A stretch of DNA of 64,000 nucleotides from Streptomyces profundus. Lineage in GTDB: Bacteria > Actinomycetota > Actinomycetes > Streptomycetales > Streptomycetaceae. Below are positions 12,432-53,751 of the stretch, piece by piece. The stretch's first letter is position 1. Each line of letters opens with the position of its first letter. The translations under genes were made by a program, and so were the position numbers. A model generated the notes under the pieces. That model saw only the letters and a program-made list of their open reading frames with translations, did not search any database and was not told the DNA's origin. Location of the stretch: NCBI RefSeq assembly GCF_020740535.1, contig NZ_CP082362.1, positions 4,834,501 to 4,898,500 on the forward strand, read 5' to 3'.

Positions 12432-15065
12432 GTGACCGACATGACCCAGCGGCCCGCCAACGGGCCCCGCAGCGCCGCCCCCTCAGATCTGCCGACTCAG
12501 TACACGCCGGCCGACGTAGAGGGCAGGCTCTATGAGCGGTGGGTAGAACGCGGTTACTTCGAGGCGGACGCCAAGAGCGCCCGGGAGCCGTACACGATCG
12601 TCATCCCGCCGCCCAACGTCACCGGCAGCCTGCACCTCGGGCACGCCTTCGAACACACGCTGATCGACGCGCTCACCCGCCGCAAGCGGATGCAGGGCTT
12701 CGAGACCCTCTGGCAGCCCGGCATGGACCACGCGGGCATCGCCACGCAGAACCGCGTCGAGCGCGAGCTGGCCAAGGAGGGCGTCTCCCGGCACGATCTC
12801 GGCCGGGAGGCGTTCATCGAGCGCGTCTGGCAGTGGAAGGCCGAGTCCGGCGGCACGATCTCCGGCCAGATGCGCCGGCTCGGTGACGGCGTCGCCTGGT
12901 CCCGCGAGCGCTTCACGATGGACGAGGGCCTCTCCCGGTCCGTGAACACCATCTTCAAGCGCCTCTACGACGACGGCCTGATCTACCGCGCCGAGCGCAT
13001 CATCAACTGGTGCCCCCGCTGTGTCAGCGCCATCTCCGACATCGAGGTCGAATACCAGGACGACGCCGGCGAGTTGGTGTCCATCCGCTACGGCGACGGC
13101 GAGGACTCGCTGGTCGTCGCCACCACCAGGGCCGAGACGATGCTGGGCGACACCGCCGTCGCCGTCCATCCGGACGACGAGCGCTACCGCCATCTGGTCG
13201 GCCGCGAGATCAAGCTGCCGCTGACCGACCGCGCCATCCCGGTCGTCGCCGACGCCCATGTCGATCCCGAGTTCGGCACGGGCGCCGTCAAGGTCACCCC
13301 CGCGCACGACCCCAACGACTTCGAGATCGGCCTGCGGCACGGCCTGCCGCAGATCACGGTGATGGACGAGCAGGCCAGGATCACCGCGCACGGCCCCTTC
13401 CTCGGGCTCGACCGCCTTGAGGCGCGGGCCGCCGTGGTCGGCGCGCTGCGCGCCGAGGGGCGGATCGTCGCCGAGAAGCGCCCCTATGTGCACTCCGTCG
13501 GCCACTGCTCGCGCTGTCAGACGACGGTCGAGCCCCGGCTGTCCATGCAGTGGTGGGTCAAGGTGGCCCCGCTCGCCCAGGCCGCGGGGGACGCGGTCCG
13601 CGACGGCCGGGTCGCCATCCACCCCAAGGAGATGTCCACCCGCTACTTCGAGTGGGTGGACAACCTCCACGACTGGTGCATCTCCCGCCAGCTGTGGTGG
13701 GGGCACCGCATCCCCGTCTGGTACGGCCCCGACGACGAGATCCGCTGCCTCGGCCCGGACGAGGAGCCGCCCAGCGGCCCCGGCTGGCGCCAGGAGACGG
13801 ACGTGCTGGACACCTGGTTCTCCTCCGGGCTCTGGCCGTTCTCCACGCTGGGCTGGCCCGAGCGGACGGAGAGCGTCGCGAAGTTCTATCCGAACTCCGT
13901 GCTCGTCACCGGCTACGACATCCTCTTCTTCTGGGTCGCCCGGATGATGATGTTCGGCCTCTACGCGATGGACGGCGTCCCCCCGTTCCGCACCATCGCC
14001 CTGCACGGCATGGTGCGTGACCAGTTCGGCAAGAAGATGTCCAAGTCCTTTGGGAACGCGGTCGATCCGCTGGACTGGATGGACGCCTATGGTTCGGACG
14101 CCGTCCGTTTCACCCTCGCCAGAGGCGCCAACCCGGGCGTCGACGTGCCGATCGGCGAGGACTGGGTCCAGGCGTCGAGGAACTTCGCCAACAAGATCTG
14201 GAACGCCACCCGCTTCGCGCTGCTCAACGGCGCCACGGTGGCCGGCCCGCTGCCGGCGGCCGACGAGCTGTCCGCCACCGACCGCTGGGTGCTCTCCCGG
14301 CTGAACGCGGTGGTCGCCCAGGTCGACGCCCACTACGACGACTACCAGTTCGCCAAGCTCAGCGACGCCCTCTTCCACTTCGCCTGGGACGAGGTCTTCG
14401 ACTGGTACGTCGAGCTGTCCAAGACCACGTTCGCCGCCGGCGGCCGGCCGGCCGAGGTCTCCCGGCGGGTGCTGGGCGAGGTCCTGGACGTCACGCTCCG
14501 GCTGCTGCACCCGCTGATCCCGTTCGTCACCGAGGAGCTGTGGACCACGCTCACCGGCGGCGAGTCCGTGGTGGTCGCCGACTGGCCGGTCGACTCCGGT
14601 TTCCGCGCCGCCGACGCCGAGCGGGAGATCGACACCGTCCGTCAACTGGTCACCGAGGTCCGCAGGTTCCGCGCCGACCAGGGGCTCCAGCCGGGGCAGC
14701 GGGTGCCGGCCACGCTGGCCCTCGCCGACACCCCCCTCGCGGCCCACGAGCCGGCGATCAGGTCCCTGCTGCGCCTGGAGCCGGCCGGCGACTCCTTCGC
14801 CGCCACGGCCACCCTGCCGGTGGCCGGCGTCGAGGTGGCGCTCGACCTCTCCGGCGCGATCGACTTCGCCGCCGAGCGCAAGCGCCTCTCCAAGGACCTG
14901 GCCGCCGCGGAGAAGGAGCTGGCCCAGACGACCGCCAAGCTGGGCAACGAGGCGTTCCTGGCCAAGGCGCCCGAGCAGGTGGTCGGCAAGATCCGGGGCC
15001 GCCGGCAGGCCGCCGAGGAGGACATCGCCCGCATCGCGGCCCAGTTGGCCAAGCTCCCCGAATAG
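12432..15065 (+). CDS. valS: Valyl-tRNA synthetase
   Basis: 877 residues from GTG 12432 (ATG 12441 alternative). Class I synthetase signatures are clear: HIGH-type HLGHAFEH early in the protein and KKMSKSFGN in the catalytic core, with the editing (CP1) domain between them and an anticodon-binding domain after it. The C-terminal coiled coil ([21 protein letters not shown]) is the ValRS tRNA-binding arm. Length is normal for ValRS. The protein charges tRNA-Val and edits threonine. Confidence 0.98.
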
Positions 15066-41852: not shown

Positions 41853-42524
41853 TCAGAGGGCGTCGGGGAGTCCGGTCAGCAGGGCCAGGGCGCAGATGGT
41901 GGCCTCCTCGTCGGTCAGGCCGAGGGGGACGCGCCAGCCCAGGGTGTCGCGGACGGTCAGGGAGCGGTCGCCGAGGCGGATGGCGTGGCGCGTGACCTGG
42001 TAGAGGGGGCCGCGCCCGCGACGGACGGTGATCTCGCGGCCGTGCAGCCAGACGGCGAGCGGCTGCCGGGTGTCGCCGTCCAGGTACTCGCCGGCCTTGC
42101 TCTGCTTCTCCAACTGGTGTCGCAGCACGCCGGGTTCCTTGAGCCACCGCGGCAGCTGGACGCGCTCCGTCCCGTCCGGTCCGGTGAGCGTCGCGGTCAG
42201 CCGCTCCATCCGGGGCCGCAGGCTCAGGGTGAACTCCGCACCGGCCAGGTCCGCGCCGCGTCTCCAGATGAGGCCCAGCTTCCGCCACCGACCGATCTCC
42301 ACCGGCCGCAGCTCCGGCTCCTTGGCCCGTAGGCGCTGGTCACGGCGTGATCTGACGTAGTGCCTGACCCCGACCCACATCCCGAACGGCAGGACCGCGG
42401 CGAACCACAGCAGGCTGAACTTCCACAACTGGGGCCCGATCGCGCCGATCGCCCCCAGCGGCAGCGTGATCAGGCCGACGAACCGAGCACCCTGCCACAC
42501 TGCCGCACGCCACATCGTGTCCAC
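41853..42524 (-). CDS. Two-helix membrane protein of unknown function (paralogue of the protein at 27024-27713)
   Basis: 223 residues from ATG 42524 (ATG 42515 alternative). Two hydrophobic segments (VGLITLPLGAIGAIG, LLWFAAVLPFGMWVGV) precede a soluble region that ends IRLGDRSLTVRDTLGWRV followed by EEATICALALLTGL. The same ending and the same overall layout occur in the minus-strand protein at 27024-27713. The shared C-terminal module suggests a lineage-specific family in the accessory region. No function can be given. Confidence 0.75.
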   Translation of the reverse strand: MDTMWRAAVWQGARFVGLITLPLGAIGAIGPQLWKFSLLWFAAVLPFGMWVGVRHYVRSRRDQRLRAKEPELRPVEIGRWRKLGLIWRRGADLAGAEFTLSLRPRMERLTATLTGPDGTERVQLPRWLKEPGVLRHQLEKQSKAGEYLDGDTRQPLAVWLHGREITVRRGRGPLYQVTRHAIRLGDRSLTVRDTLGWRVPLGLTDEEATICALALLTGLPDAL

Positions 42525-42591
42525 CCCTTCGTCCGTCCCCGCGCTCGCCGGTCGGCGGCGACGGCTCCGGGGACGGCTCCGGGGTCGTCGG

Positions 42592-43479
42592 CTACTTCCA
42601 CGCCGTTCGGTGGCCGGTGCGGCGGAGGTGTCGCGCGGCGCGGATCAGCATGCCGTGGCGGGGGGCCAGGGTCCAGGCCAGGAGGAAGAAGCCGGTGGCC
42701 ACCAGCACGATGGTGCCGCCGGTCGGGAGGTCGGCGCTCCAGGAGAGGTAGAGGCCGACCAGGGCCGAGACGGCGCCGATCAGCGGGGACAGCAGCATCA
42801 TCACGCCGAGCCGGTCCGTCAGCAGCCGCGCGGTGGCGGCCGGGGTGACCAGCAGGGCCAGGACCAGGATGTTGCCGATGGTCTGCACGGAGATGACCAC
42901 CGCGATCGAGACCATCACATAGAGCGCCAGGTCCAGGGCGAAGACCGGCAGGCCCAACGCGCGGGCCGACTCGCGGTCGAGGGTGACGGCCACGAACTCC
43001 TTGTGGAACAGGAAGGTCAGGACCAGCAGCGCCGCCGTGGAGACGGCCACCACCACCAGGTCCTCGTCGGGGATGCCGGTGATCGAGCCGAAGAGGAACT
43101 GCTGGAGCGAGCCCGAGTAGCCGGGGGAGCGGCTGATGATCACGATGCCGAGGGCGAAGGCCGCGACGAAGAAGACGCCGATCACGCTGTCCTCGCGCAG
43201 CCGCCGGTTCTGCGAGAACACCGCGACGGCGACGGCGGTGAGCACCCCGGCCACCGCGCCGCCCAGCACCAGGTTGCCCTGGATCACGAACGCCACCGCG
43301 AGCCCGGGGAAGACGGCGTGCGCGACGGCGTCGCCGATGAACGCCATTCCGCGCAGCACCACATAGCAGCCGATGATCCCGCAGACCGCCGACGAGAGCA
43401 GCGCGACAAAGAGCGCCTTGGGGAGGAAGGAGAGCGCGGGATTGACCAGGTCGGCGACGAACTCCTGTGGAGTCAGCAT
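42592..43479 (-). CDS. Anchored-repeat-type metal ABC transporter, permease
   Basis: 295 residues from ATG 43479, overlapping the ATPase stop by one base. About eight hydrophobic helices and the ZnuB/MntB-type signatures YVVLRGMAFIGDAVAHAVFPGLA and SVQTIGNILVLALLVTPAATA place it in the ABC-3 permease family. Together with the next two proteins it forms a zinc or manganese importer. Confidence 0.92.
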   Translation of the reverse strand: MLTPQEFVADLVNPALSFLPKALFVALLSSAVCGIIGCYVVLRGMAFIGDAVAHAVFPGLAVAFVIQGNLVLGGAVAGVLTAVAVAVFSQNRRLREDSVIGVFFVAAFALGIVIISRSPGYSGSLQQFLFGSITGIPDEDLVVVAVSTAALLVLTFLFHKEFVAVTLDRESARALGLPVFALDLALYVMVSIAVVISVQTIGNILVLALLVTPAATARLLTDRLGVMMLLSPLIGAVSALVGLYLSWSADLPTGGTIVLVATGFFLLAWTLAPRHGMLIRAARHLRRTGHRTAWK

Positions 43480-44222
43480 CAGTTGACCCCCAGCGCGGCA
43501 AGAAGCGGGCTGCCGGCGCGGATGCCGAAGGCCGTCCGCCACAGCTCCGCGTCGGTGAGCGCCTCGGGCGCGCCGGTGGCCACCACCGTCCGGTTGACCA
43601 GGCAGAGCCGGCCGCAGGTGTGCATGGCGGCGGCCAGGTCGTGGGTGGTCATCAGCACCGCCTTCCCCTCCCGGCTCAGCTCGGCGAAGAGATCGGTCAG
43701 CAGCTCCTGCGTCGGCATGTCGAGCCCGGTGAACGGCTCGTCCAGCAGCAGCACGCTCGGCCGCAGCGCCAACGCGCGGGCGACCAGGACGCGTTGGCGC
43801 TGACCGCCGGAGAGCTGGCCCACCGGGCGGTCGGCCAGCGCCGTCATGCCGACCCGGGCCAGCGCCTCGCCCGCCGCGCGGTAGTCGTCCACCCCCGGGC
43901 GGCGCACCCAGCCGACGCGGCGTACCCGGCCGGAGAGCACCGTGTCGGCGACATCGATGGGGAAGTCCCAGGCGAACTCGTGGCGTTGGGGCACATAGCC
44001 GACGCGCTGGCGGACCCGGGCGATCGGCGCGCCGTCGACCAGCACGGTGCCGGAGGCGGGGCGGACCAGGCCGAGCACCGAGCGCAGCAGGGTGGTCTTG
44101 CCGGCGCCGTTGGGGCCGATCAGCCCCATGAAGTCGCCCCTCTCCACGGTGAGTTCGATATCGCGCAGCACCAGCCGCCCGCCGAGGACCACGTTCAGGC
44201 CGCGCACCGACACGGCCGTCAT
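43479..44222 (-). CDS. Anchored-repeat-type metal ABC transporter, ATP-binding protein
   Basis: 247 residues from ATG 44222. Walker A GPNGAGKTTLL, the signature LSGGQRQRVL, Walker B VLLLDEPFTGLD and the H-loop TTHDL are all present, with the Q-loop in YVPQRHEFAWDFP, which is typical of the ZnuC/MntA group. Its start overlaps the stop of the upstream repeat-protein gene by four bases. Confidence 0.94.
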   Translation of the reverse strand: MTAVSVRGLNVVLGGRLVLRDIELTVERGDFMGLIGPNGAGKTTLLRSVLGLVRPASGTVLVDGAPIARVRQRVGYVPQRHEFAWDFPIDVADTVLSGRVRRVGWVRRPGVDDYRAAGEALARVGMTALADRPVGQLSGGQRQRVLVARALALRPSVLLLDEPFTGLDMPTQELLTDLFAELSREGKAVLMTTHDLAAAMHTCGRLCLVNRTVVATGAPEALTDAELWRTAFGIRAGSPLLAALGVN

Positions 44223-45184
44223 GACGCGTCCCCGTCCGATGCGGCGGCGAGCCGCCTGGCCCGCCGGCCGCGCGCGGTGACGGTGAGCAGGGCGCCCAGC
44301 AGGGCCACGGCCACCGCCCCGACGGCGAGCAGGACCACCGGCAGCGAGGAGGTCGCGGTCTCGTCCTGTTCCTCGTCCGGCTCGGGTTCCGCCGGGGCCG
44401 GCGTCGGCTCCGGCTCGTCGACGGTGGTGGCGAACGCCTCGGCCACGTCCGTCGTCTCGCCGACGGCGAAGCGCAGCGGTGCGCGGTCGGCGACGGTCTC
44501 CCCGGTGATCAGATCGGCCGACACCTCGAAGTCCAGGACGTAGACGCCGGGTTGGGTGAAGACCCAGTTGGCGTGGGTGTGGGTGTTGAGGTCCACCCAC
44601 AGCTCCTGGGGCCCCGGCTCGTCGCCGTCCCAGAGCACCTCGGGGGCGCCGAGGTCGCCGTTCTGGAGGAAGACCGCGAGGTGTCCCGGGCCCTCGACGC
44701 CGTGCATCGTCAGCGTCACCCCCCGGTTGACCCGGGCCATGACCTCCGGGTCCTGGGTGTTCCAGCCCAGCCAGACCACCTCGGGGGCCTGGGTCTGGGG
44801 GATGACATGGAGGTCGCTGCCAGGCTCGGCGTCCAGGAAGGCGAACCGCGGGTCGTCGGGCGCCTGTTGGACCGCCGCGTCGACGACTCTCGTCACCACG
44901 TCGGTCAACGCCCGCCACACCGGGGGCGACTGGGAGTCGTCCCGGCCCTGGATGCGCCACTCGCCGTCGACGAACCGTGGGCCGATGTCCACATGGCCGA
45001 TGTCGAGCACCGCCTCGCCGGTGACGTTCTCCTCCTCGGGGGCGACGGTCTGGCCCAGGTCGCCCTCCTCGTCGGCGTGCACGGCCGGCGCCGTCAGGGC
45101 GACGAGGAGGCCGGCGGCGAGCAGGGCCGCCGGCAGCGTGCGTCGGTGGCGGAACGCGCCCGGCGGCGCGAGGAGTTGAGGCAT
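44219..45184 (-). CDS. Transporter-associated surface repeat protein with C-terminal membrane anchor
   Basis: 321 residues from ATG 45184, with AAGGAA upstream. A signal peptide (LPAALLAAGLLVALTAPAVHA) is followed by one complete actinobacterial wall repeat (from VLDIGHVDIG through FLDAEPGSDLHVIPQTQAPEVVWLGW to HTHANWVFTQPGVYVLDF), an acidic Pro/Glu linker, a transmembrane helix (SLPVVLLAVGAVAVALLGALLTV) and a basic tail. There is no LPxTG-type motif, so it is membrane-anchored. It lies inside the ABC operon and may pass metal to the receptor; this role is inference. Confidence 0.88.
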   Translation of the reverse strand: MPQLLAPPGAFRHRRTLPAALLAAGLLVALTAPAVHADEEGDLGQTVAPEEENVTGEAVLDIGHVDIGPRFVDGEWRIQGRDDSQSPPVWRALTDVVTRVVDAAVQQAPDDPRFAFLDAEPGSDLHVIPQTQAPEVVWLGWNTQDPEVMARVNRGVTLTMHGVEGPGHLAVFLQNGDLGAPEVLWDGDEPGPQELWVDLNTHTHANWVFTQPGVYVLDFEVSADLITGETVADRAPLRFAVGETTDVAEAFATTVDEPEPTPAPAEPEPDEEQDETATSSLPVVLLAVGAVAVALLGALLTVTARGRRARRLAAASDGDAS

Positions 45185-45222
45185 CTTCGGTTCCTTGCTG
45201 GGGGGAGGTGTGGAGGAGAGGT

Positions 45223-46797
45223 TCAGCCGAGGCAGTCGCGCAGGGAGTCGGCGTTGGCGCGCATCATCGCGACATAGCTGGTGACGTTCTCGTCGAAGGC
45301 GTCGCCGTAGATCACGCACACCTCCACGCCGCGCTCCTCGGCGATCTGGACGAGGGTGCTGGAGCGGCTGCGGAGGTTGGGCTCCAGGAAGACGGCCGGC
45401 ACGGCGAGGTTGTCGATGGTCTCGCCCAGCCGTCGGCGTTCCACCAGGCTGGGCTCGGTCGCCGGGTTGGGTGTGACGAAGCCGGCGATGTCCAGGCCGT
45501 AGGCCGCGCCCAGATAGCCGAACGCGTCGTGGGTGGTGACCAGTTGGCGCCGCGAGGGTGGGATCTCCGCGACGGTGTCGGTCACCTGGGCGTCGAGCTC
45601 CTCCAACTCCCGCAGGTAGTCGGCGGCGTTGGCGCGGTACTCGGCGGCGTGCCCGGGGTCGATCTCGATCAGGGTGTCCCTGATGATCTTGACATAGGCC
45701 ATCGCGTTGCGGACGTTCTGCCACAGATGGGGGTCGATCTCGCCGTGCACATGGCGGCCCAGGACGGCCTGGGGCAACTGGTGGATCTCGTCGCCGGCCC
45801 GGCCCAGCACGCGGAACCTGGGGTCTCCCGGCACCTCGGTGAGCGCCTTGTTGGGCACCTCGACCACCGTCCGGGCGGGGGAGTGGGCCTCGTGACGGGC
45901 GCCGCCGCCCTCGGCGTCGGCGAGGAGGGACAGCCCCTCGGGTCCGTCCAGATCGACGGTGACATCGGCGTGCCCCTCGTCGAGCACGGTCGCCCCGGCC
46001 ATGCCGGGGACCGCGTGTGGGTCGACGCCGACCGCGAAGGTGATCGTGGACTCGCCCACCGGCAGCGGCCGGCTGCCCTGGGTGGGCACCACCTCGGCCG
46101 CCAGATCCAGCCGGTAGACGCCCGGTTCGGTGAACGCCCAGCTCATATGGGTGTGGGCGTCCGGCGGGAGGAGGACGGTGTCGTGTTCGTAGCCGTCGCC
46201 GGGGTCGAAGCCGTCCGACGAGTCGAAGTAGACCGCCGGCTCGCCGAAGGTCTCCGTCAGATAGCCGACCAGCTCGCCGGGGCCTTCGAGCCCGGTGGCC
46301 TTCAGCCGCACCTCGGACGAGCGGGTGGCCCCCAGCTCCTCGCCCGTTCCCCGCACGCGCAGACCCAGCCAGATCGTGTCCAGGTTGACGTTCTCCACCA
46401 GCGGGATGATCTCGGCCGCGTACCGCACCGCCCGTTCGGCGAGCGAGATGTTGGGAACGTCGTCCGGAAGGTTGGCGTCCAGCGCGCGGATCAGGTTCTG
46501 CTCCTCCAGCATCAGGTAGTTGCTGAACGCGGCGTCGGCGTAGACGATGTCGCGCACGTCCCGCAGGGTGGGTTCGTGCGCGTGCGGGTCGCCGCCCTCG
46601 GGGACCAGCGACTCGACGTCGACCAGCTCACCGCCGACGTGCCGGGCCAGGTCGGCCAGGATGCCCGTGGTGGTGACGACGCTGAGCCGACCGTCGTCCG
46701 GCGGGGTGGTCAACCCCCCGCAGCCGCCGACCGTCAGGGCCAGTGCGACGGCCAGTGCGGCGCTTCCGAGGGCCATGGGCCGGCTGACTCTCTCCAT
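45223..46797 (-). CDS. Anchored-repeat-type metal-binding lipoprotein (ZnuA-like) with an inserted repeat domain
   Basis: 524 residues from ATG 46797 (ATG 46803 alternative). A lipobox Cys26 (LTVGGC) marks a lipoprotein. The ZnuA-like N-lobe (VVTTTGILADLARHVGGELV, HAHEP at 72-76) and C-lobe (HLWQNV near 357, TTHDAFGY near 421, GDAFDE near 499) supply the expected metal ligands. Between them, residues about 138-347 are a wall-repeat domain whose second half (WLGLRV ... HTHMSWAFTEPGVYRLDL) comes before its first half (VLDEGHADV ... DPRFRVLGRAGDEIHQLPQ). The family is normally about 300 residues. Confidence 0.9.
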   Translation of the reverse strand: MERVSRPMALGSAALAVALALTVGGCGGLTTPPDDGRLSVVTTTGILADLARHVGGELVDVESLVPEGGDPHAHEPTLRDVRDIVYADAAFSNYLMLEEQNLIRALDANLPDDVPNISLAERAVRYAAEIIPLVENVNLDTIWLGLRVRGTGEELGATRSSEVRLKATGLEGPGELVGYLTETFGEPAVYFDSSDGFDPGDGYEHDTVLLPPDAHTHMSWAFTEPGVYRLDLAAEVVPTQGSRPLPVGESTITFAVGVDPHAVPGMAGATVLDEGHADVTVDLDGPEGLSLLADAEGGGARHEAHSPARTVVEVPNKALTEVPGDPRFRVLGRAGDEIHQLPQAVLGRHVHGEIDPHLWQNVRNAMAYVKIIRDTLIEIDPGHAAEYRANAADYLRELEELDAQVTDTVAEIPPSRRQLVTTHDAFGYLGAAYGLDIAGFVTPNPATEPSLVERRRLGETIDNLAVPAVFLEPNLRSRSSTLVQIAEERGVEVCVIYGDAFDENVTSYVAMMRANADSLRDCLG

Positions 46798-46893
46798 GAG
46801 CATCCCTGAACATCCCTGTCTTTCCAGCGGTGTCGGGCCGACGGCGCCCGTGCGAAGGGGCGCCGTCGGCCCGGTCTCGGGCGTGGGCCGGTC

Positions 46894-48897
46894 TCAGGCG
46901 TGGGACGTCCGCTGCCTTCGGGCGATCAGGAACACGCCGGCGCCGGCGGCCAGCAGGGTGGCGCTGAGGCCCACCACGAGCAGGGGCGGGAAGCCGCTGC
47001 CGGTGCTGGCCAGGTTGCCGCCCCCGCCGCCCGACTGGTCGGCGGGGAGGGCGCAGTCCTCGCCGTCGGCGGTCTTGCCGACCGTCACCGTCCGGGTGGT
47101 GCCGCCCTGGGGCCGCTGGCCGCTGGGCGCGTCCCCGACGGCGAAGGTGTAGGTCGCCGAGTCGCTGGTGATGGCCGCACCGTTGGCCGGGTTGGTGGCC
47201 GTCGCCCGGGCGGTGAGCGTGTAGGTGCCGGCCTCGGTGAACGTCCACTGGGCGTGGGTGTGCGCCGGCGTTGCCTCCCGCAGGGTGCCGGGCAGCTCGT
47301 AGCCGCCCTCCTCCAACAGCGAGACGACGCCGCCGAAGGTGTTGGTGGTGTAGAGGAAGACGTCGCCGGGGCCCGCCACCGAGCTGATGTCGATCTCCAC
47401 GTCGGTGTAGCCGCTGCCGGCGGTGCCGTTGGTGTCCCAGCCGGGCCAGACCAGGTTCGGGTCCTGGGTCAGCGGCAGCAGATAGCCGGCCGGCGAGCCC
47501 GGGTACGCCTCGGGGATGTCCTCGGTGAGCGCGTCGGGCTTGACGTGCAGCGCCACGTCCTCTGGGGCGTGCGTCACATGGCTGCCGGTCACGTCCTCCT
47601 TGAGGTTGAGGACCAGGTCGTCGCCCTCGGCCACCACGTTGAACGCGTCGATATGCCCGTGGTCGAGCACCAGCAGGTCGCGCGGCTCGGCCGGGACGTC
47701 GCGGTCCTCCTCGACCGGGAAGCACCGCGGCTCGTCGTGGACGGTGCCTCCTGCGGGGCCTCCGCCGGTGCCGCCGCTGTCCGAACCGCCGGTGTCCCCG
47801 GTGCCGCCGGTGCTGTCCGAACCGCCGTCGGTGCCGTCGTCGGAGCCGCCGCCGCTGGTGCCGCCGTCGCTGCCGCCGCCACCGTTGGTGCCGCCCGAAC
47901 TCCCGTCGGTGCCGCCGGAGTCGCCGTCCGAGCCGCCCGCGTGGCCGTCGTCGTGGTCGTCGACGCGGATGGTCACCGGCTCGGAGGTGGCGACCACCTC
48001 GTGGTCCTCGTCCAGCAGTTCGGCCCGCAGCTGCTGGCCGTCCACCTCGGCGGTGCCCGCGTACCGGTCGCCGGCGCCGCCCTCGGCGGCCTCCCAGTCG
48101 GCGGCGGCGGAGTCCCTGCTGTACCAGTGGTAGTGGTCGAGATCGGTCGTGGCGTCGGGGACGGCCGTCAACTCGACCGCGTCACCGGTGTGGTAGTGGT
48201 CCGACAGCCCCTCGATCGACAGGCCGGTCGGTGCCGGGTCGGGTTCCTCCGCCTCGCCGACCGAGAAGCTGTAGTCGGCCGGCGCGCTGGTGAGCACGGA
48301 ACCGGTGGCGGGGTTGGTCGCGGTCGCCCGCGCGGTGAGGGTGTAGCTGCCCGGCTCGCTGAACGTCCACTGGGCGTGGGTGTGCGCCGGGGTCGCCTCC
48401 CGCAGGGTGCCGGGCAGCTGGTAGCCGCCGTCCGCCAACAGGGAGGTGACGGTGCCGAAACCGGTCAGCGTGTAGAGGAAGACGTCGCCGGGGCCCGCCA
48501 CCGAGCTGATGTCGATCTCCACGTCGGTGTAGCCGCTGCCGGCGGTGCCGTTGGTGTCCCAGCCGGGCCAGATCAGGTTCTGGTCCTGGGTCAGTGGCAG
48601 CACGTATCCGGCCGGCGAGCCCGGGTACGCCTCGGGGATGCCGTCGATCCAGGCGTCCTCCTTGACGTGCAGCAGCACGTCCTCGGGGGCGTGGCGGACA
48701 TGTGAGCCGGTCACGTCCTCCTTGAGGTCCAACACCAGCTCGCCTCCCTCGACGGAGACGTTGAAGGCGTCGATATGCCCGTGGTCCAGCACCAGCGGAT
48801 CGGCCGCGTGCGCGGTGCCCATGGCGCCGGCCACCACGGCCGAGGCCACGAGGCCCGCCATGGCGTGCCGCCATCCGGGGCGTATTCGGGTGTCCAT
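46894..48897 (-). CDS. Wall-anchored protein with two actinobacterial surface repeats and LASTG sorting signal
   Basis: 667 residues from ATG 48897. A signal peptide (residues 1-32) is followed by repeat 1 (LVLDHGHIDAFNV to YSFSVG), an Ig-like stretch (LSIEGLSDHYHTGDAVEL to EPVTIRV), a 75-residue Gly/Ser/Asp linker, repeat 2 (nearly identical to repeat 1, again beginning LVLDHGHIDAFNV and containing HTHAQWTFTEAGTYTL), and LASTG, a hydrophobic helix and a basic end (ARRQRTSHA). LAxTG is the class E sortase motif. A Zur-like box lies 84 bp upstream, and the ABC genes follow, so it is likely the first gene of the operon. Confidence 0.9.
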   Translation of the reverse strand: MDTRIRPGWRHAMAGLVASAVVAGAMGTAHAADPLVLDHGHIDAFNVSVEGGELVLDLKEDVTGSHVRHAPEDVLLHVKEDAWIDGIPEAYPGSPAGYVLPLTQDQNLIWPGWDTNGTAGSGYTDVEIDISSVAGPGDVFLYTLTGFGTVTSLLADGGYQLPGTLREATPAHTHAQWTFSEPGSYTLTARATATNPATGSVLTSAPADYSFSVGEAEEPDPAPTGLSIEGLSDHYHTGDAVELTAVPDATTDLDHYHWYSRDSAAADWEAAEGGAGDRYAGTAEVDGQQLRAELLDEDHEVVATSEPVTIRVDDHDDGHAGGSDGDSGGTDGSSGGTNGGGGSDGGTSGGGSDDGTDGGSDSTGGTGDTGGSDSGGTGGGPAGGTVHDEPRCFPVEEDRDVPAEPRDLLVLDHGHIDAFNVVAEGDDLVLNLKEDVTGSHVTHAPEDVALHVKPDALTEDIPEAYPGSPAGYLLPLTQDPNLVWPGWDTNGTAGSGYTDVEIDISSVAGPGDVFLYTTNTFGGVVSLLEEGGYELPGTLREATPAHTHAQWTFTEAGTYTLTARATATNPANGAAITSDSATYTFAVGDAPSGQRPQGGTTRTVTVGKTADGEDCALPADQSGGGGGNLASTGSGFPPLLVVGLSATLLAAGAGVFLIARRQRTSHA

Positions 48898-49247
48898 GTG
48901 GTGAGTTGCTCCCTCTGCTGTTGTCGGCGCCGCCGATGTCGGACCGGCCGCATCCCTCCGACGGTGCGAAGCGTACGAAATGAAAATCGTTTTCATCAAG
49001 GGGTGTCGGGTGTGCTCCCGGACGGACGTCGGCGGGCGGACCGGCTTCTCGGTGGCGGGCCGTGCGCCTCAAGTGGGTTTGACGGTGGGGGAGTTGTGGG
49101 GACCGTCAGACGCCGGGCCGGGTGGAGGGCCGGTGTGGGGCCGCGCCCATCGGTGTGACGCACGGCACGCCTGCGGCGCTGCCGCCGCTGCCCGGTGGTG
49201 GTTGCGGTGTGTGTGGGTTCGGCTGCTGCCCGCGGCGCTGTCGCCGC
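48898..49247. other. Intergenic region with Zur-like box
   Basis: 350 bp between the two wall-protein genes. The palindrome at 48980-48996 is the only recognisable element; the stretch 49000-49240 contains no convincing gene. Confidence 0.55.
48980..48996 (-). promoter_or_regulatory. Zur-like box upstream of the anchored-repeat ABC operon
   Basis: ATGAAAATCGTTTTCAT is a 17-bp palindrome with one mismatched pair. The core TGAAAATCGTTTTCA matches 13 of 15 positions of the Streptomyces Zur consensus (TGAAAATGATTTTCA). It lies 84 bp upstream of the start at 48897, so zinc-dependent repression of the operon is predicted. Confidence 0.75.
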
Positions 49248-50474
49248 TCATTCGGTCGTCGTCCGGTGGCGGTTCGGTCGAGTGGCCCGCAGGAGGGCGA
49301 GTCCGGCCGCTGCGGCCAGCAGGGCGCCGACGCCGAGGGGGACGAAGTCCCCGCCGGTTGCGGCGAGTTCGCCCGTCGCGCCGCGCCCACCGCTGCTGCC
49401 CGCTGCCGCGCTGCCGGCCGTTGCGCTGCCGGCTGTCGCGCCACTGCCTGTCGCGCCACTGCCCGCTGTCGTGTCGCCACTCGTCGCGCTGCCGACCGTC
49501 CCGCCGTCACTGCCGCCGCCCGTCCCGGCGCTGCCGGCCGTCGCGCCGCCCGCTGTCGCGCCGCCGGCCGTCGCGCTGCCGCCCGTCCCGCCGCCGTCAC
49601 TGCCGCCGGCTGTCCCGCCGCCGCCCGTCGCGCCGCCGGCTGTCCCGCCGCCGCCCGCTGTCGCGTCGCCGTCGCCGTCGTCATCGTCGCCGTCGCCGCT
49701 GCCGCCGCCCGTGTCGCCCGGCTCCACCGGCGGAGCCACCGGCGGAGCCTCCGGTGTGGGGAGTTCGACGTGGTCCGGGTCCGTGTCGCCGACGACGGCG
49801 GTCAGTGTGCCCGTGTCATGGACCCGTTCGCCCGTCGGCAGGGTGGTGCTCAGCTCCAGGCGGAGGCGGTAGACGCCCTCCTCGGTGAAGAACCACAGCG
49901 GGTGGGCGTGCACGCCGGGGCGCAGCTCCACGGCGCCCGGTTCGGCGCGGGTGCCGTCGATGTCGATGCCGACCACGCTGCCCAGCTCCGGATGGTCGCG
50001 CCACTGGCCGAGGAAGAACCCGTCGGGCCCCGTCACCTCGGTGAAGGTCGCGGTGATCGGCGAGTTGACGGCGTCGGTCGGGATCTCCTCCGTGCTCCAG
50101 CCCGGCCACAGCAGCCCCGGCGCGTAGGTGACGCTGTGGTCGACCCAGAGGGTGTCCCCCGGCTCTCCCAGCTCCTCCGGCACCCGCCCGGCCGCCGAGG
50201 CGGGTATCTCCCACGCGTGCCGGGCGTCGAAGTGCAGGATGACGTCGTCGGGTTCGCGCCAGACCGACTGTCCGGGGACCGTGCCGTCCTTGACCTGGAA
50301 CGTCAGCTCCGCGCCGTCGAGCCGGGCCGCGAGATCCAGATGGCCGCCGTCGAGCACCGCCCGTTCCCGGTCGGGCCCCTCCTCGGCGGCGGCGGACGCG
50401 GGCGCCAACAGCAGCCCGACGGCCGCCATGGCGCCGATCCACGGCGCCCGCTGCCGCCGCCCGTGTCGTGACAT
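49248..50474 (-). CDS. Wall-anchored surface repeat protein with LAATG sorting signal and Ala/Gly/Thr-repeat stalk
   Basis: 408 residues from ATG 50474, with GAGGAG seven bases upstream. A signal peptide is followed by one wall repeat (VLDGGHLDLAARLD to HAHPLWFFTEEGVYRLRL), then a stalk of about 150 residues built from short GGSDGG, TAGGA and GSATAG units, then ELAATGGDF, a hydrophobic helix (LGVGALLAAAAGLALL) and a basic end. LAATG is a sortase E-type signal. A weaker Zur-like box lies 41 bp upstream. The stalk is encoded by a GC-rich imperfect repeat. Confidence 0.88.
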   Translation of the reverse strand: MSRHGRRQRAPWIGAMAAVGLLLAPASAAAEEGPDRERAVLDGGHLDLAARLDGAELTFQVKDGTVPGQSVWREPDDVILHFDARHAWEIPASAAGRVPEELGEPGDTLWVDHSVTYAPGLLWPGWSTEEIPTDAVNSPITATFTEVTGPDGFFLGQWRDHPELGSVVGIDIDGTRAEPGAVELRPGVHAHPLWFFTEEGVYRLRLELSTTLPTGERVHDTGTLTAVVGDTDPDHVELPTPEAPPVAPPVEPGDTGGGSGDGDDDDGDGDATAGGGGTAGGATGGGGTAGGSDGGGTGGSATAGGATAGGATAGSAGTGGGSDGGTVGSATSGDTTAGSGATGSGATAGSATAGSAAAGSSGGRGATGELAATGGDFVPLGVGALLAAAAGLALLRATRPNRHRTTTE

Positions 50475-50514
50475 GCCCACACTCCTCAGGGTCGATGAAC
50501 GCCATCACCGTAGT

Positions 50515-50529
50515 TGGTGATGATTTCCA
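50515..50529 (-). promoter_or_regulatory. Weaker Zur-like box upstream of the LAATG protein gene
   Basis: TGGTGATGATTTCCA matches 11 of 15 consensus positions (the ATGATTT core is intact) and lies 41 bp upstream of ATG 50474. The arms are only partly palindromic, so the site may be weak or non-functional. Confidence 0.45.
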
Positions 50530-50608
50530 TGTCCATATCGACGGGAAACCTCAAGTGACGGTCTCCGTCTGTGACATGGCGCACCGGAACACTGCTTGCC
50601 ACGTCCAG

Positions 50609-50625
50609 ATGAAAATGATTATCGT
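50609..50625 (+). promoter_or_regulatory. Zur-like box upstream of the secreted repeat protein gene
   Basis: ATGAAAATGATTATCGT contains TGAAAATGATTATCG, 13 of 15 matches to the Streptomyces Zur consensus. It lies 47 bp upstream of the GTG at 50672 in the region between two divergent genes, so it could control both. Confidence 0.75.
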
Positions 50626-50671
50626 CTTGGCGTCGGTCTCCCTGTGACTCCTCACCAAGCGAGGTTCAACC

Positions 50672-51322
50672 GTGCGTAACGCCCGTAGGTCTCTCACCGT
50701 CGCCGGCGGTATCGCCGCCGCCCTCTCCTGCGCTTCCCTGGCCACCGCGTCGGCCGCCGCCCCCGTGGTCATCTCCACCGGCCATGTGGACGTCGTGGGC
50801 GTGGAGTTGGCGGACGGCGCCTTCCATGTGCATGTTCACGACGAGGACAGCGGCGTGGCGTACGAGCCCGCCGACGTCGTCCTTCAGGCGCTGCCCGGCG
50901 CCGCCTACACCGTCCCGAGCGATCCCTGCTACGGCTTCCTCGGCGCGGCCGGCGACACCGTTCACCGGCTGCCGCAGACCCAGAACCCGGATCTGCTCTG
51001 GGCCGGCCTCTCCGCCCATATCGACGCCGGCGTGCTGGCGGGCGACACCTTCACCCTCTCCCTGGAGAGCGTGACGGGGCCCGGCGACCTCAGCGTCTAC
51101 CAGGACGGCCTGTGCGCCGCCGACTCCCGCTTCTTCGACAGCGGCGACGGCATCGACGCGGCGGACTCCACCGAACTGAACGCGCACAGCCACGTCCACG
51201 CCAACTGGGCCTTCACCGAGCCCGGTGACTACACCGTCGCGTTCACCGTCAGCGGCACCCTCGTCGACGGGACGGCCGTTCCGCCGGTGACCGAGGAGTA
51301 CACCTTCAGCGTCGCCGAGTAG
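50672..51322 (+). CDS. Secreted surface-repeat protein, free form
   Basis: 216 residues from GTG 50672, with GAGG seven bases upstream. A signal peptide (GGIAAALSCASLATASAAA) is followed by one complete wall repeat: VVISTGHVDVVGVEL, FLGAAGDTVHRLPQTQNPDLLWAGL, and HVHANWAFTEPGDYTVAF. The repeat contains a Cys pair (DPCYGF and DGLCAAD) that could form a disulfide, and unusually many His (FHVHVHDED, AHSHVHAN). There is no anchor, so it is a soluble exported protein. It is divergent from the ABC cluster; its 3' end overlaps that of the convergent ATPase gene by 17 bp. Confidence 0.88.
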   Translation: MRNARRSLTVAGGIAAALSCASLATASAAAPVVISTGHVDVVGVELADGAFHVHVHDEDSGVAYEPADVVLQALPGAAYTVPSDPCYGFLGAAGDTVHRLPQTQNPDLLWAGLSAHIDAGVLAGDTFTLSLESVTGPGDLSVYQDGLCAADSRFFDSGDGIDAADSTELNAHSHVHANWAFTEPGDYTVAFTVSGTLVDGTAVPPVTEEYTFSVAE

Positions 51323-53366
51323 GCGCGCCCTCCGGCGCCGCACCCGCCGCCGTGGAACGAGGCCGGCGAGGGGAGCGCGCGCGACGCGCGCTCCCCTCCT
51401 CGGCCGCCACACCTCGCGGCGCGGGGAGTGGGGCGCGGAGCGGGAGGTGGGTGCGGCGGCCGGCGCGGATGCCGTTGGCGATGACCAGGACCTCGGCCAG
51501 CTCGTGGGCGGCCACGACGGCGGTCAGGCCCAGGGTGCCGGTCGCGGCCAGGGGGACGAGCGCGACGAGGATGGCGCCGGAGAGCAGCAGGTTCTGGGTG
51601 AGGATCCGGCGGGCGGCGCGGGTGTGGGCGATGGCGTCGGGCAGCCGTCGCAGGTCCTCGCCCATCAGCGCGACGTCGGCGGCCTCGATGGCGACATCGC
51701 TGCCCATGGCGCCCATCGCCACGCCCGCGTGGGCGGTGGCCAGCGCCGGGGCGTCGTTGATGCCGTCGCCGGCCATGGCCACCGGCCCCTGGGCGGTGGA
51801 CAGTTCGCTGACGACGCGCGCCTTGTCCGCGGGGAGCAGCTCGGCGTGGACGTCGCCGATGCCGGCGCCCGCGGCGATCGCGTGGGCGGTGCGGGCGTTG
51901 TCGCCGGTGAGCATCGCCAGGCGCATGCCCTGCTTCTTCAGGGTGGTGACCGCTTCGGCGGCCTCGGGGCGGATCTCGTCGCGGACGGCTATGGCGCCGA
52001 TGAGTTCCGCGTCCAGCTCGACGAGGACGACGGTCGAGCCGGCGTCCTGGAGCCGGTCGACCTCGGCGGCCAGCGGTCCTGGGGAGACAAAGCCCGGCTT
52101 GCCCAGCCGGGCGGGGCGCCCCAGAGCCGTGCCGCGCAGCCCCAGGCCGGGGACGGCCTCGACCTCGACGGCCGGCGTCCCCGGTGGGGCGGCGGCCAGG
52201 ACGGCCGCGGCCAGGGGGTGCTCGCTGCGGGCCTCCAACGCGGCGGCCACCCTGAGCACATGCGCTGGCTCTCGCCCGGGGGCGGCCACGGTGTCGACGA
52301 CGGTCGGCTCGTTGCGGGTGAGGGTGCCCGTCTTGTCGAGGGCGACGACCCGGACCTGGCCGAGCCGCTCCACCGCTGCGCCGCCCTTGATCAGGACGCC
52401 GGCCCTGGAGGCGGCGCCGATCGCGGCGACCACCGCGATGGGCACGGAGAGCGCGAACGCGCAGGGCGCGGCGGCCACCAGCACGACCAGGGCCCGTTCG
52501 ATCCACACGTCGGGGTCGCCCAGCAGGCTGCCCAGGCCGGCCACCAGCGCGGCCAGCACCAGCACCCCCGGCACCAGCGGGCGGGCGAAGCGCTCCGCCA
52601 GGCGCTGGCTGGTGCCCTTGCGCGCCTGCGCCTGGTGCACGGTGTGGACCAGGCGCGCCAGGGAGTTGTCCTCGGCGGTGGCGGTGACGGAGATCTCCAG
52701 CGCCCCGGCGCCATTGACCGCGCCGGCGAACACCTCGGCGCCCGGACCCACTTCGACGGGCGCCGACTCGCCGGTGACCACGGAGAGATCCAGCGCGCCA
52801 TGGCCGGCCAGAACCAGTCCGTCGGTGGCGATCCGCTCGCCGGGGCGCACCAACAGGACGTCGCCGATGCGGAGTTCATCGGGGGCGACCTCGGCTTCGG
52901 CGCCGTCGCGCAGGACGCGCGCGGTGGGCGGGACCAGGTCGAGCAGGGCGCGCAGCCCCCGCCGGGTGCGGGCCAGGGCGTAGCCCTCCAGGGCCTCGGC
53001 TATGGAGAACAGGAACGCGAGCATCGCGGCCTCGCCCAACTCGCCCAACGCCACGGCCCCGGCGGCGGCGATGGACATCAGCAGGCCCACGCCCAACCGC
53101 CCGCGCAGCAGGGCCCGTAGGGCGCCGGGCACGAAGGTGCCGGCGCCGACCAGCAGCGCGGCCAGCAGCAGGCCGGTGGACCAGGCGCCGGACGCCGGCC
53201 AGGAGGCTCCCAGCAGCAGACCGGAGACGGCCGCCGCGCGCAGCGTGGCCCCGCCGGCCAGCCGGGCCACCGGCGCCCGCGTTCCAACCGTTCCAGCTGT
53301 TCCAGCTGTTCCACCCGTGCCGTCGGCCGCGTCCGTTCCGTCCGTCGCGCAGCAGGCGTCAGCCAT
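51306..53366 (-). CDS. P1B-type heavy-metal translocating ATPase
   Basis: 686 residues from ATG 53366, which overlaps the upstream regulator gene by eight bases. TGE (198-200), DKTGT (344-348) and MAGDGINDAPAL are intact. The membrane metal site reads Ala300-Pro-Cys302, so the first Cys of the usual CPC is missing. There is no N-terminal CxxC ferredoxin-like domain, only ACC at residues 4-6. Coupling to a CmtR-like sensor suggests Cd/Pb/Zn efflux. The last 50 residues are an atypical Arg/Ala-rich extension that runs through a strong hairpin. Confidence 0.92.
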   Translation of the reverse strand: MADACCATDGTDAADGTGGTAGTAGTVGTRAPVARLAGGATLRAAAVSGLLLGASWPASGAWSTGLLLAALLVGAGTFVPGALRALLRGRLGVGLLMSIAAAGAVALGELGEAAMLAFLFSIAEALEGYALARTRRGLRALLDLVPPTARVLRDGAEAEVAPDELRIGDVLLVRPGERIATDGLVLAGHGALDLSVVTGESAPVEVGPGAEVFAGAVNGAGALEISVTATAEDNSLARLVHTVHQAQARKGTSQRLAERFARPLVPGVLVLAALVAGLGSLLGDPDVWIERALVVLVAAAPCAFALSVPIAVVAAIGAASRAGVLIKGGAAVERLGQVRVVALDKTGTLTRNEPTVVDTVAAPGREPAHVLRVAAALEARSEHPLAAAVLAAAPPGTPAVEVEAVPGLGLRGTALGRPARLGKPGFVSPGPLAAEVDRLQDAGSTVVLVELDAELIGAIAVRDEIRPEAAEAVTTLKKQGMRLAMLTGDNARTAHAIAAGAGIGDVHAELLPADKARVVSELSTAQGPVAMAGDGINDAPALATAHAGVAMGAMGSDVAIEAADVALMGEDLRRLPDAIAHTRAARRILTQNLLLSGAILVALVPLAATGTLGLTAVVAAHELAEVLVIANGIRAGRRTHLPLRAPLPAPRGVAAEEGSARRARSPRRPRSTAAGAAPEGAPTRRR
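51369..51399 (+). terminator. Perfect 14-bp hairpin, probable terminator for the secreted repeat gene
   Basis: GAGGGGAGCGCGCG (51369-51382) and its exact complement (51386-51399) close a three-base loop, 46 bp after the stop of the plus-strand gene at 51322. It lies inside the 3' coding sequence of the minus-strand ATPase, and can act on either strand. Confidence 0.65.
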
Positions 53367-53751
53367 GGCCGGGCCGCTCGTCGGCGTGGGCGTAGTCGTC
53401 GGGGCCGCACGGTTCGCCGGACGCGTCCTGGTGGTCGACCAGCAGCACCAGGGCGGCCAGCTCGGCCAGCGCGTGCGCCAACTTGGGGTCGGCCAGCTCG
53501 TACCGCACCCGCCGCCCCACCGGAACGCCTCGGACCAGGCCGCAACCGCGCAGGCACGACAGGTGGTTGGAGACGTTCCCCCGCGTCATCCCCAGCCGGT
53601 CCGCCAGATCCGACGGATAGGCGGGCTCCGCCAACAACGCCAGCAACAGCCGCCGCCGGCTCTCGTCCGCCAACGCGGTCCCGACCCGGGCCAGAGCCGC
53701 CGCGTCCACGACCACGCCAGGGCCGCCCTCGGAGATGCTCACCATGGCCAC
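53359..53751 (-). CDS. CmtR-like ArsR/SmtB-family metal-sensing repressor
   Basis: 130 residues from ATG 53751. The winged helix contains LGMTRGNVSNHLSCLRGCGLV, which matches the mycobacterial Cd/Pb sensor CmtR closely, including the Cys pair (here Cys66 and Cys70). A third cysteine (Cys115 in GEPCGPDD) corresponds to the C-terminal ligand of CmtR. Metal binding should release it from DNA and derepress the efflux ATPase, which it overlaps by eight bases. The C-terminal His residues (YAHADERPGHG) might add to binding. Confidence 0.9.
   Translation of the reverse strand: MAMVSISEGGPGVVVDAAALARVGTALADESRRRLLLALLAEPAYPSDLADRLGMTRGNVSNHLSCLRGCGLVRGVPVGRRVRYELADPKLAHALAELAALVLLVDHQDASGEPCGPDDYAHADERPGHG

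Follow-up and report, generated by a model that had tools for sequence, protein, structure and literature searches.

A zinc-type ABC receptor of Streptomyces profundus carries the domain of its surface partner proteins as a predicted circular permutation

Why should the substrate-binding protein (SBP) of a metal ATP-binding cassette (ABC) transporter carry within its chain the domain of the surface proteins encoded beside it, with the two halves of that domain exchanged? This question is raised by a locus in a 64,000-nucleotide stretch of the Streptomyces profundus genome (RefSeq assembly GCF_020740535.1, contig NZ_CP082362.1, positions 4,834,501 to 4,898,500, forward strand), which will be referred to as the window. 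The receptor encoded there has the SBP fold of the cluster A-I metal receptors (ZnuA/AztC), and its insert of about 210 residues corresponds to the choice_anch_M/TIGR03769 surface domain with the halves exchanged:

45223..46803, minus strand: zinc-type ABC receptor, a lipoprotein SBP (TIGR03772, 'anchored repeat ABC transporter, substrate-binding protein')
46027..46380, minus strand: C-terminal half of the surface-protein domain, placed first, receptor residues 142-259, holding H217/H219 (C-half profile, E 6e-17)
45769..45987, minus strand: N-terminal half of the surface-protein domain, placed second, receptor residues 273-345, holding H278/D280 (N-half profile, E 2e-15)

The surface proteins of the window carrying this domain are:

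44219..45184, minus strand: ZnuE-like protein, next after the receptor, with one normal-order domain and a hydrophobic C-terminus (NF038134, 4.2e-56)
46894..48897, minus strand: surface protein with two normal-order domains and a sortase-type C-terminal signal, LASTG (NF038134, two stretches)
49248..50480, minus strand: surface protein with one domain, a long Gly/Thr/Ala-rich stalk and a LAATG-type C-terminus, stalk and end being read from the translation (NF038134, 7.6e-30)
50672..51322, plus strand: secreted single-domain protein of 216 residues (NF038134, 3.8e-45; domain model with a predicted local distance difference test score, pLDDT, of 96.5)

A domain profile was constructed exclusively from surface open reading frames (ORFs), 78 of them with 122 domains, in the window and in 26 related clusters; receptors did not enter it. 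It was split after LPQTQ between columns 74 and 75, 116 near-full-length domains being kept, and both halves were searched. All five copies in the four window surface proteins showed the order N-half then C-half, whereas in the receptor the C-half precedes the N-half, at positions close to those given by an earlier sequence-only reading of this DNA (about residues 141-257 and 271-347). That reading had counted five proteins in normal order; the order holds, but it applies to five copies in four surface proteins, the receptor being counted separately, and the FLGxxGDxxHxLPQTQ part of the motif it quoted differs in 46894-48897 and 49248-50480 and is thus loose there. On the family profiles, NF038134 positions 74-184 map to receptor residues 137-258, with a second NF038134 stretch counted on the receptor, and on TIGR03772 the C-half of 44219-45184 lies at positions 102-227 and the N-half of 49248-50480 comes later, at 230-301.

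The C-half came before the N-half in all 27 receptors of the window and the 26 related clusters, and equally in 80 of 80 receptors from a second collection of named genomes, which comprised the best 80 of 571 loci (Streptomyces, Micromonospora, Jiangella, Leucobacter, Microbacterium, Conexibacter, metagenome-assembled genomes of Bifidobacteriaceae and others). An 81st ORF matching the receptor query was a giant surface protein and was left out of the receptor counts. Pooling both sets, which have some genomes in common, resulted in 107 receptors representing 101 distinct sequences, all with the exchanged order that the sequence-only reading had proposed to seek in homologous receptors. The surface proteins of the 78-ORF set run N then C inside each domain; five of the 78 begin with, or are only, a C-half for which no N-half is recognised; one more has such a C-half internally. 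Adjacent N-halves were not found among the 375 surface ORFs of both sets. The distance from C-half to N-half, that is, the linker joining the old domain ends, is 8-22 residues (median 13) in the 107 receptors compared to 27-390 residues in the 375 surface ORFs. Giant surface proteins (L161, 1618-9270; L174, 3960-9929; L175, 5046-9866; and others) contain up to nine C-half matches; several lack a recognisable N-half, and judged by their sequences these are degenerate or diverged domains.

For a profile-profile comparison, 49 receptors (48 of the best-80 set remaining after thinning and the window receptor) were set against 95 surface domains (90 of the 161 left after thinning 323, and the five window copies). 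The unrotated insert matched the surface-domain profile with a score of 148.1 over 94 columns. Rotating the insert in steps of five gave scores from 118 to 236, and the peak of 236, with 184 of 189 columns aligned, was reached with a start residue of 263-268, which is the boundary between the halves. Three column-shuffled inserts scored 11-18 and the two receptor lobes 9 and 14; since the shuffled inserts stay at 11-18 compared to 148 for the true and 236 for the re-rotated insert, the match is not due to chance.

AlphaFold models were built separately from the surface-domain and the receptor alignments and compared by secondary-structure element. The surface-domain model reached a pLDDT of 96.5 and a predicted template modelling score (pTM) of 0.91; the receptor model reached 83.1 and 0.68, with ten-residue means of 82-98 within the insert and a single exception of 69. 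Both predicted domains contain 17 elements, and after rotation all 17 pair one-to-one. The secondary-structure agreement was 85.5% over 186 aligned pairs at 33% identity, compared to a mean of 41.5% and a maximum of 72.6% for cyclic-shift controls. Taken together, the order of the halves, the gain in score on rotation and the complete pairing of predicted elements indicate, at the level of sequence and predicted structure, that the surface domain is circularly permuted in the insert, i.e., one domain with new ends, in agreement with the permutation that the sequence-only reading had proposed to test by structure prediction. In the models the cut separates the strand that ends with LPQ from the one that begins with a conserved W. 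Receptor residues 133-140 and 347-356, which flank the insert, have pLDDT values below 50, and because of this low confidence on either side the tethers of the insert are probably flexible; the SBP body is also of low confidence in places (residues 97-101 and 445-447).

Receptor and permease profiles exceed their cut-offs in an identical set of 27 out of 394 genomes of the class, distributed over 13 of 137 genera. The ORF directly after the receptor contains the domain in normal N-C order in 105 of 107 loci, and a C-N-C match was obtained in the other two. In a tree of thinned sequences with the inserts re-rotated, the 53 inserts form one clade separate from 167 surface domains; the supports printed for this split are 1.0 and 0.676, and the midpoint root falls on it. 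As the inserts form one clade, a single origin of the permuted insert is the simplest reading of the sequence tree.

The insert occupies the site of the His-rich or D-loop in ZnuA/AztC-type receptors. This supports the position given by the sequence-only reading; the loop is His-rich in many relatives, with at least three His in 15 of 28 other SBPs. Within the insert, H217, H219, W222, H278 and D280 are invariant in all 101 distinct receptors, as are H351 and H353 at its exit; both the HxD and the HxH motif are present in 449 of 493 surface domains. The receptor's own ligands are presumably H74 (100 of 101, one gap), H359, H425 and D501 (101 of 101), the His/His/His/Asp places which we assume for cluster A-I receptors having been carried over by alignment. 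In AztC, zinc acquisition from a partner protein depends on the loop at the corresponding place (PMC7463823, in the part consulted). This precedent and the invariance of HxD and HxH make metal capture by the insert or its docking with the surface repeats, as suggested in the sequence-only reading, plausible by analogy.

Membership of the receptor in a known family is clear: TIGR03772 aligns over its full length (profile 1-486 of 486) with 764.7 bits, compared to a curated cut-off of 350.45 bits. The TIGR03772 profile itself covers the insert, and the TIGR03769 repeat model reaches 44.1 bits (cut-off 30.9) at receptor residues 216-258. The transporter is completed by two further genes:

43479..44258, minus strand: ATPase subunit, coordinates of the stretch tested, true start within (TIGR03771, 363.2 bits, cut-off 268.8)
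42592..43542, minus strand: permease subunit (TIGR03770, 444.6 bits, cut-off 296.8)

A minus-strand run from 48897, the likely ATG start of the 46894-48897 gene, to 42592 thus encodes in order the two-domain wall protein, the receptor, the ZnuE-like protein, the ATPase and the permease, and the divergent pair 49248-50480 (minus) and 50672-51322 (plus) brings two further one-domain proteins. All four surface proteins exceed the cut-offs of NF038134 and TIGR03769, and one exceeds that of TIGR03773: the two-domain protein, with 261.5 bits (cut-off 190.3), which also scores 16.8 bits with LPXTG_anchor (cut-off 15.9); two further sortase models stay below cut-off on it. A Pfam search detected the ZnuA and transporter families in the cluster and no family above cut-off in any of the four surface proteins. 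The Gly/Thr/Ala-rich stalk of 49248-50480 lies between domain and anchor, and the opposite strand there also holds long open frames. No anchor was seen on the 216-residue secreted protein. Its gene end overlaps by 17 bases, in convergent orientation, that of a heavy-metal P-type ATPase gene of the Zn/Cd type (51306-53366, minus strand), which directly adjoins the cluster; a gene beside the cluster (53359-53751, minus strand) encodes an ArsR-family regulator resembling CmtR that scores beneath the CmtR family cut-off.

Two sites in the cluster resemble binding sites of the zinc regulator Zur, for which we take TGAAAATSRTTTTCA to be the consensus:

48981..48995, no strand assigned: Zur-type palindrome TGAAAATCGTTTTCA, ahead of the minus-strand run of five genes (0 mismatches to the consensus)
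50610..50624, no strand assigned: second Zur-type box, in the gap separating the divergent genes 49248-50480 and 50672-51322 (2 mismatches)

The former lies about 84 bases ahead of the likely start at 48897. Allowing up to three mismatches, the window contains six strand-wise matches at three places, compared to 0.08 expected; the third place is a palindrome at 12943-12957, remote from the cluster, with two and three mismatches on the two strands. At up to two mismatches the whole genome yielded 15 strand-wise matches at nine places and none for the backward-read control pattern; other boxes are found at G000:C1:214962, 3774897, 5053412/5053434 and 6049216. Zur-type boxes were detected in 43 of 107 related loci (0 of 107 for the backward control; the window part scanned was 42001-52000). 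These predicted sites upstream of the genes point to zinc as the metal.

Our reading, which we consider fairly probable, is that in this receptor the D- or His-rich loop of a ZnuA/AztC-type lipoprotein has been replaced by a permuted partner domain serving a zinc relay. The permutation would put both domain ends at one loop and thereby make the domain insertable at a loop of the receptor. Under zinc shortage Zur would release its sites, and the wall-anchored and secreted proteins would collect zinc at their HxD/HxH sites. The metal could then pass, directly or via the ZnuE-like protein, to HxD/HxH of the tethered domain and/or to H351-x-H353 at its exit; it would then reach the ligand site of the receptor itself (H74, H359, H425, D501) and finally pass through permease and ATPase. 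The tethered domain would be the partner-facing element of the receptor in place of the D- or His-rich loop, and it would receive zinc from similar domains of proteins in the wall and the membrane. The copy of the partner domain in this loop suggests that a module for docking or zinc relay may be built into the receptor. A more speculative variant, to which we give little credence, is that a permuted copy is used because permutation leaves the domain open between two adjacent strands, so that the halves could open toward the receptor zinc site or one of them could be swapped with that of a surface domain in normal order, zinc being handed between matching half-sites, HxD from one and HxH from the other.

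Other explanations have to be weighed against this zinc-relay proposal. The insert might be a permuted domain that acts as a scaffold for assembly or for docking to the ZnuE-like protein, the surface proteins or the cell wall, with structural HxD/HxH and no handover of metal. The low-confidence tethers would suit such a role, and in Corynebacterium diphtheriae a ZnuE mutant with three His changed kept its thermal response to zinc while being less stable overall (PMC12445094, 2025, here and below in the part consulted). Nevertheless, the conservation of the four HxD/HxH residues in receptors and surface domains fits a site equally well as structure, and His was required in growth assays (PMC12445094); overall we regard a mere scaffold as rather unlikely. 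That the two halves are independent modules, shared with surface proteins by chance, could draw on the fact that each half scores alone and on a number of surface ORFs whose C-half matches come with no recognised N-half. It is hard to reconcile, however, with the joint occurrence of both halves at a short distance in 107 of 107 receptors, with the pairing of all predicted elements to one continuous domain and with a half boundary located between two strands that follow each other in a single fold predicted with confidence, which makes it extremely improbable. Import of manganese or iron instead of zinc appears very unlikely: the manganese receptors MntA and PsaA are among the sequence neighbours, and Mn receptors come within 1 Z of the first-ranked fold neighbour, but that neighbour is the zinc receptor AztC, which is also the second-ranked NCBIfam family, Zur-type boxes lie upstream, and Zur controls the C. 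diphtheriae relatives (PMC6711530, in the part consulted).

Several observations weigh against our interpretation of a permuted zinc-relay domain. A sequence search gave no solved relative of the domain, the tree gives no indication which half order is older, 13 of 28 other SBPs do not reach three His in the corresponding loop, and at the threshold applied 64 of 107 loci, some of them incomplete, lack a Zur box. The relay idea in particular is weakened by the zinc-responsive ZnuE mutant and by the weak phenotype of a znuA deletion in C. diphtheriae (PMC12445094).

Parts of this system are already known. The receptor, permease and ATPase belong by their scores to the 'anchored repeat' ABC system TIGR03769-TIGR03773, whose repeat is described as an insert; the 41-position TIGR03769 repeat model does not reveal the permutation of the whole domain of about 185 residues. 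Like the window cluster, the ZnuAECB/ZnuFG/CmrA system of C. diphtheriae encodes HxD/HxH proteins and has its genes in the order receptor-ZnuE-ATPase-permease; control by zinc and Zur, presumed for the window, is reported there (PMC6711530). Its ZnuE, ZnuF and ZnuG shift with zinc, their His are important in growth assays, and its ZnuA is described as having HxD/HxH 'in the reverse orientation' with 45 residues between them; the models mentioned in the legend of Fig. 1 are those of ZnuE, ZnuF and ZnuG, the ZnuA insert not being among them, and no word beginning with 'permut' occurs in the main text (PMC12445094). In AztABCD the AztC loop is short with three His, whereas the window receptor has a whole folded domain common to its partners. 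An AztABCD-like locus, named by eye, is also found in the window genome (L091, G000:C1:7078000-7090000), so two zinc-uptake designs coexist there; the L091 receptor has no insert and a loop of seven residues without His, and two AztD-like ORFs, recognised by eye, and a Zur-type box are located beside it. By description, the system also resembles the streptococcal Pht proteins with AdcAII, where surface proteins with repeated zinc motifs are thought to feed an SBP (comparison in PMC12445094).

That the insertion is a family trait, and that the motifs of C. diphtheriae ZnuA run in reverse, is therefore not new. Added here, from sequences and predicted models, is evidence for the circular permutation of a whole domain at the docking loop in every receptor examined, which turns a remark on motif order into a testable structural statement. 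By a natural permutation of this kind, a receptor would embed its partners' domain at the loop where AztC docks its zinc donor. If half-site handover took place, it would represent metal relay by self-likeness of donor and receptor. If the relay itself holds, it would add another Gram-positive route for zinc from wall to membrane, in receptors of many actinobacterial genera, and would show in nature how permutation can render a domain insertable.
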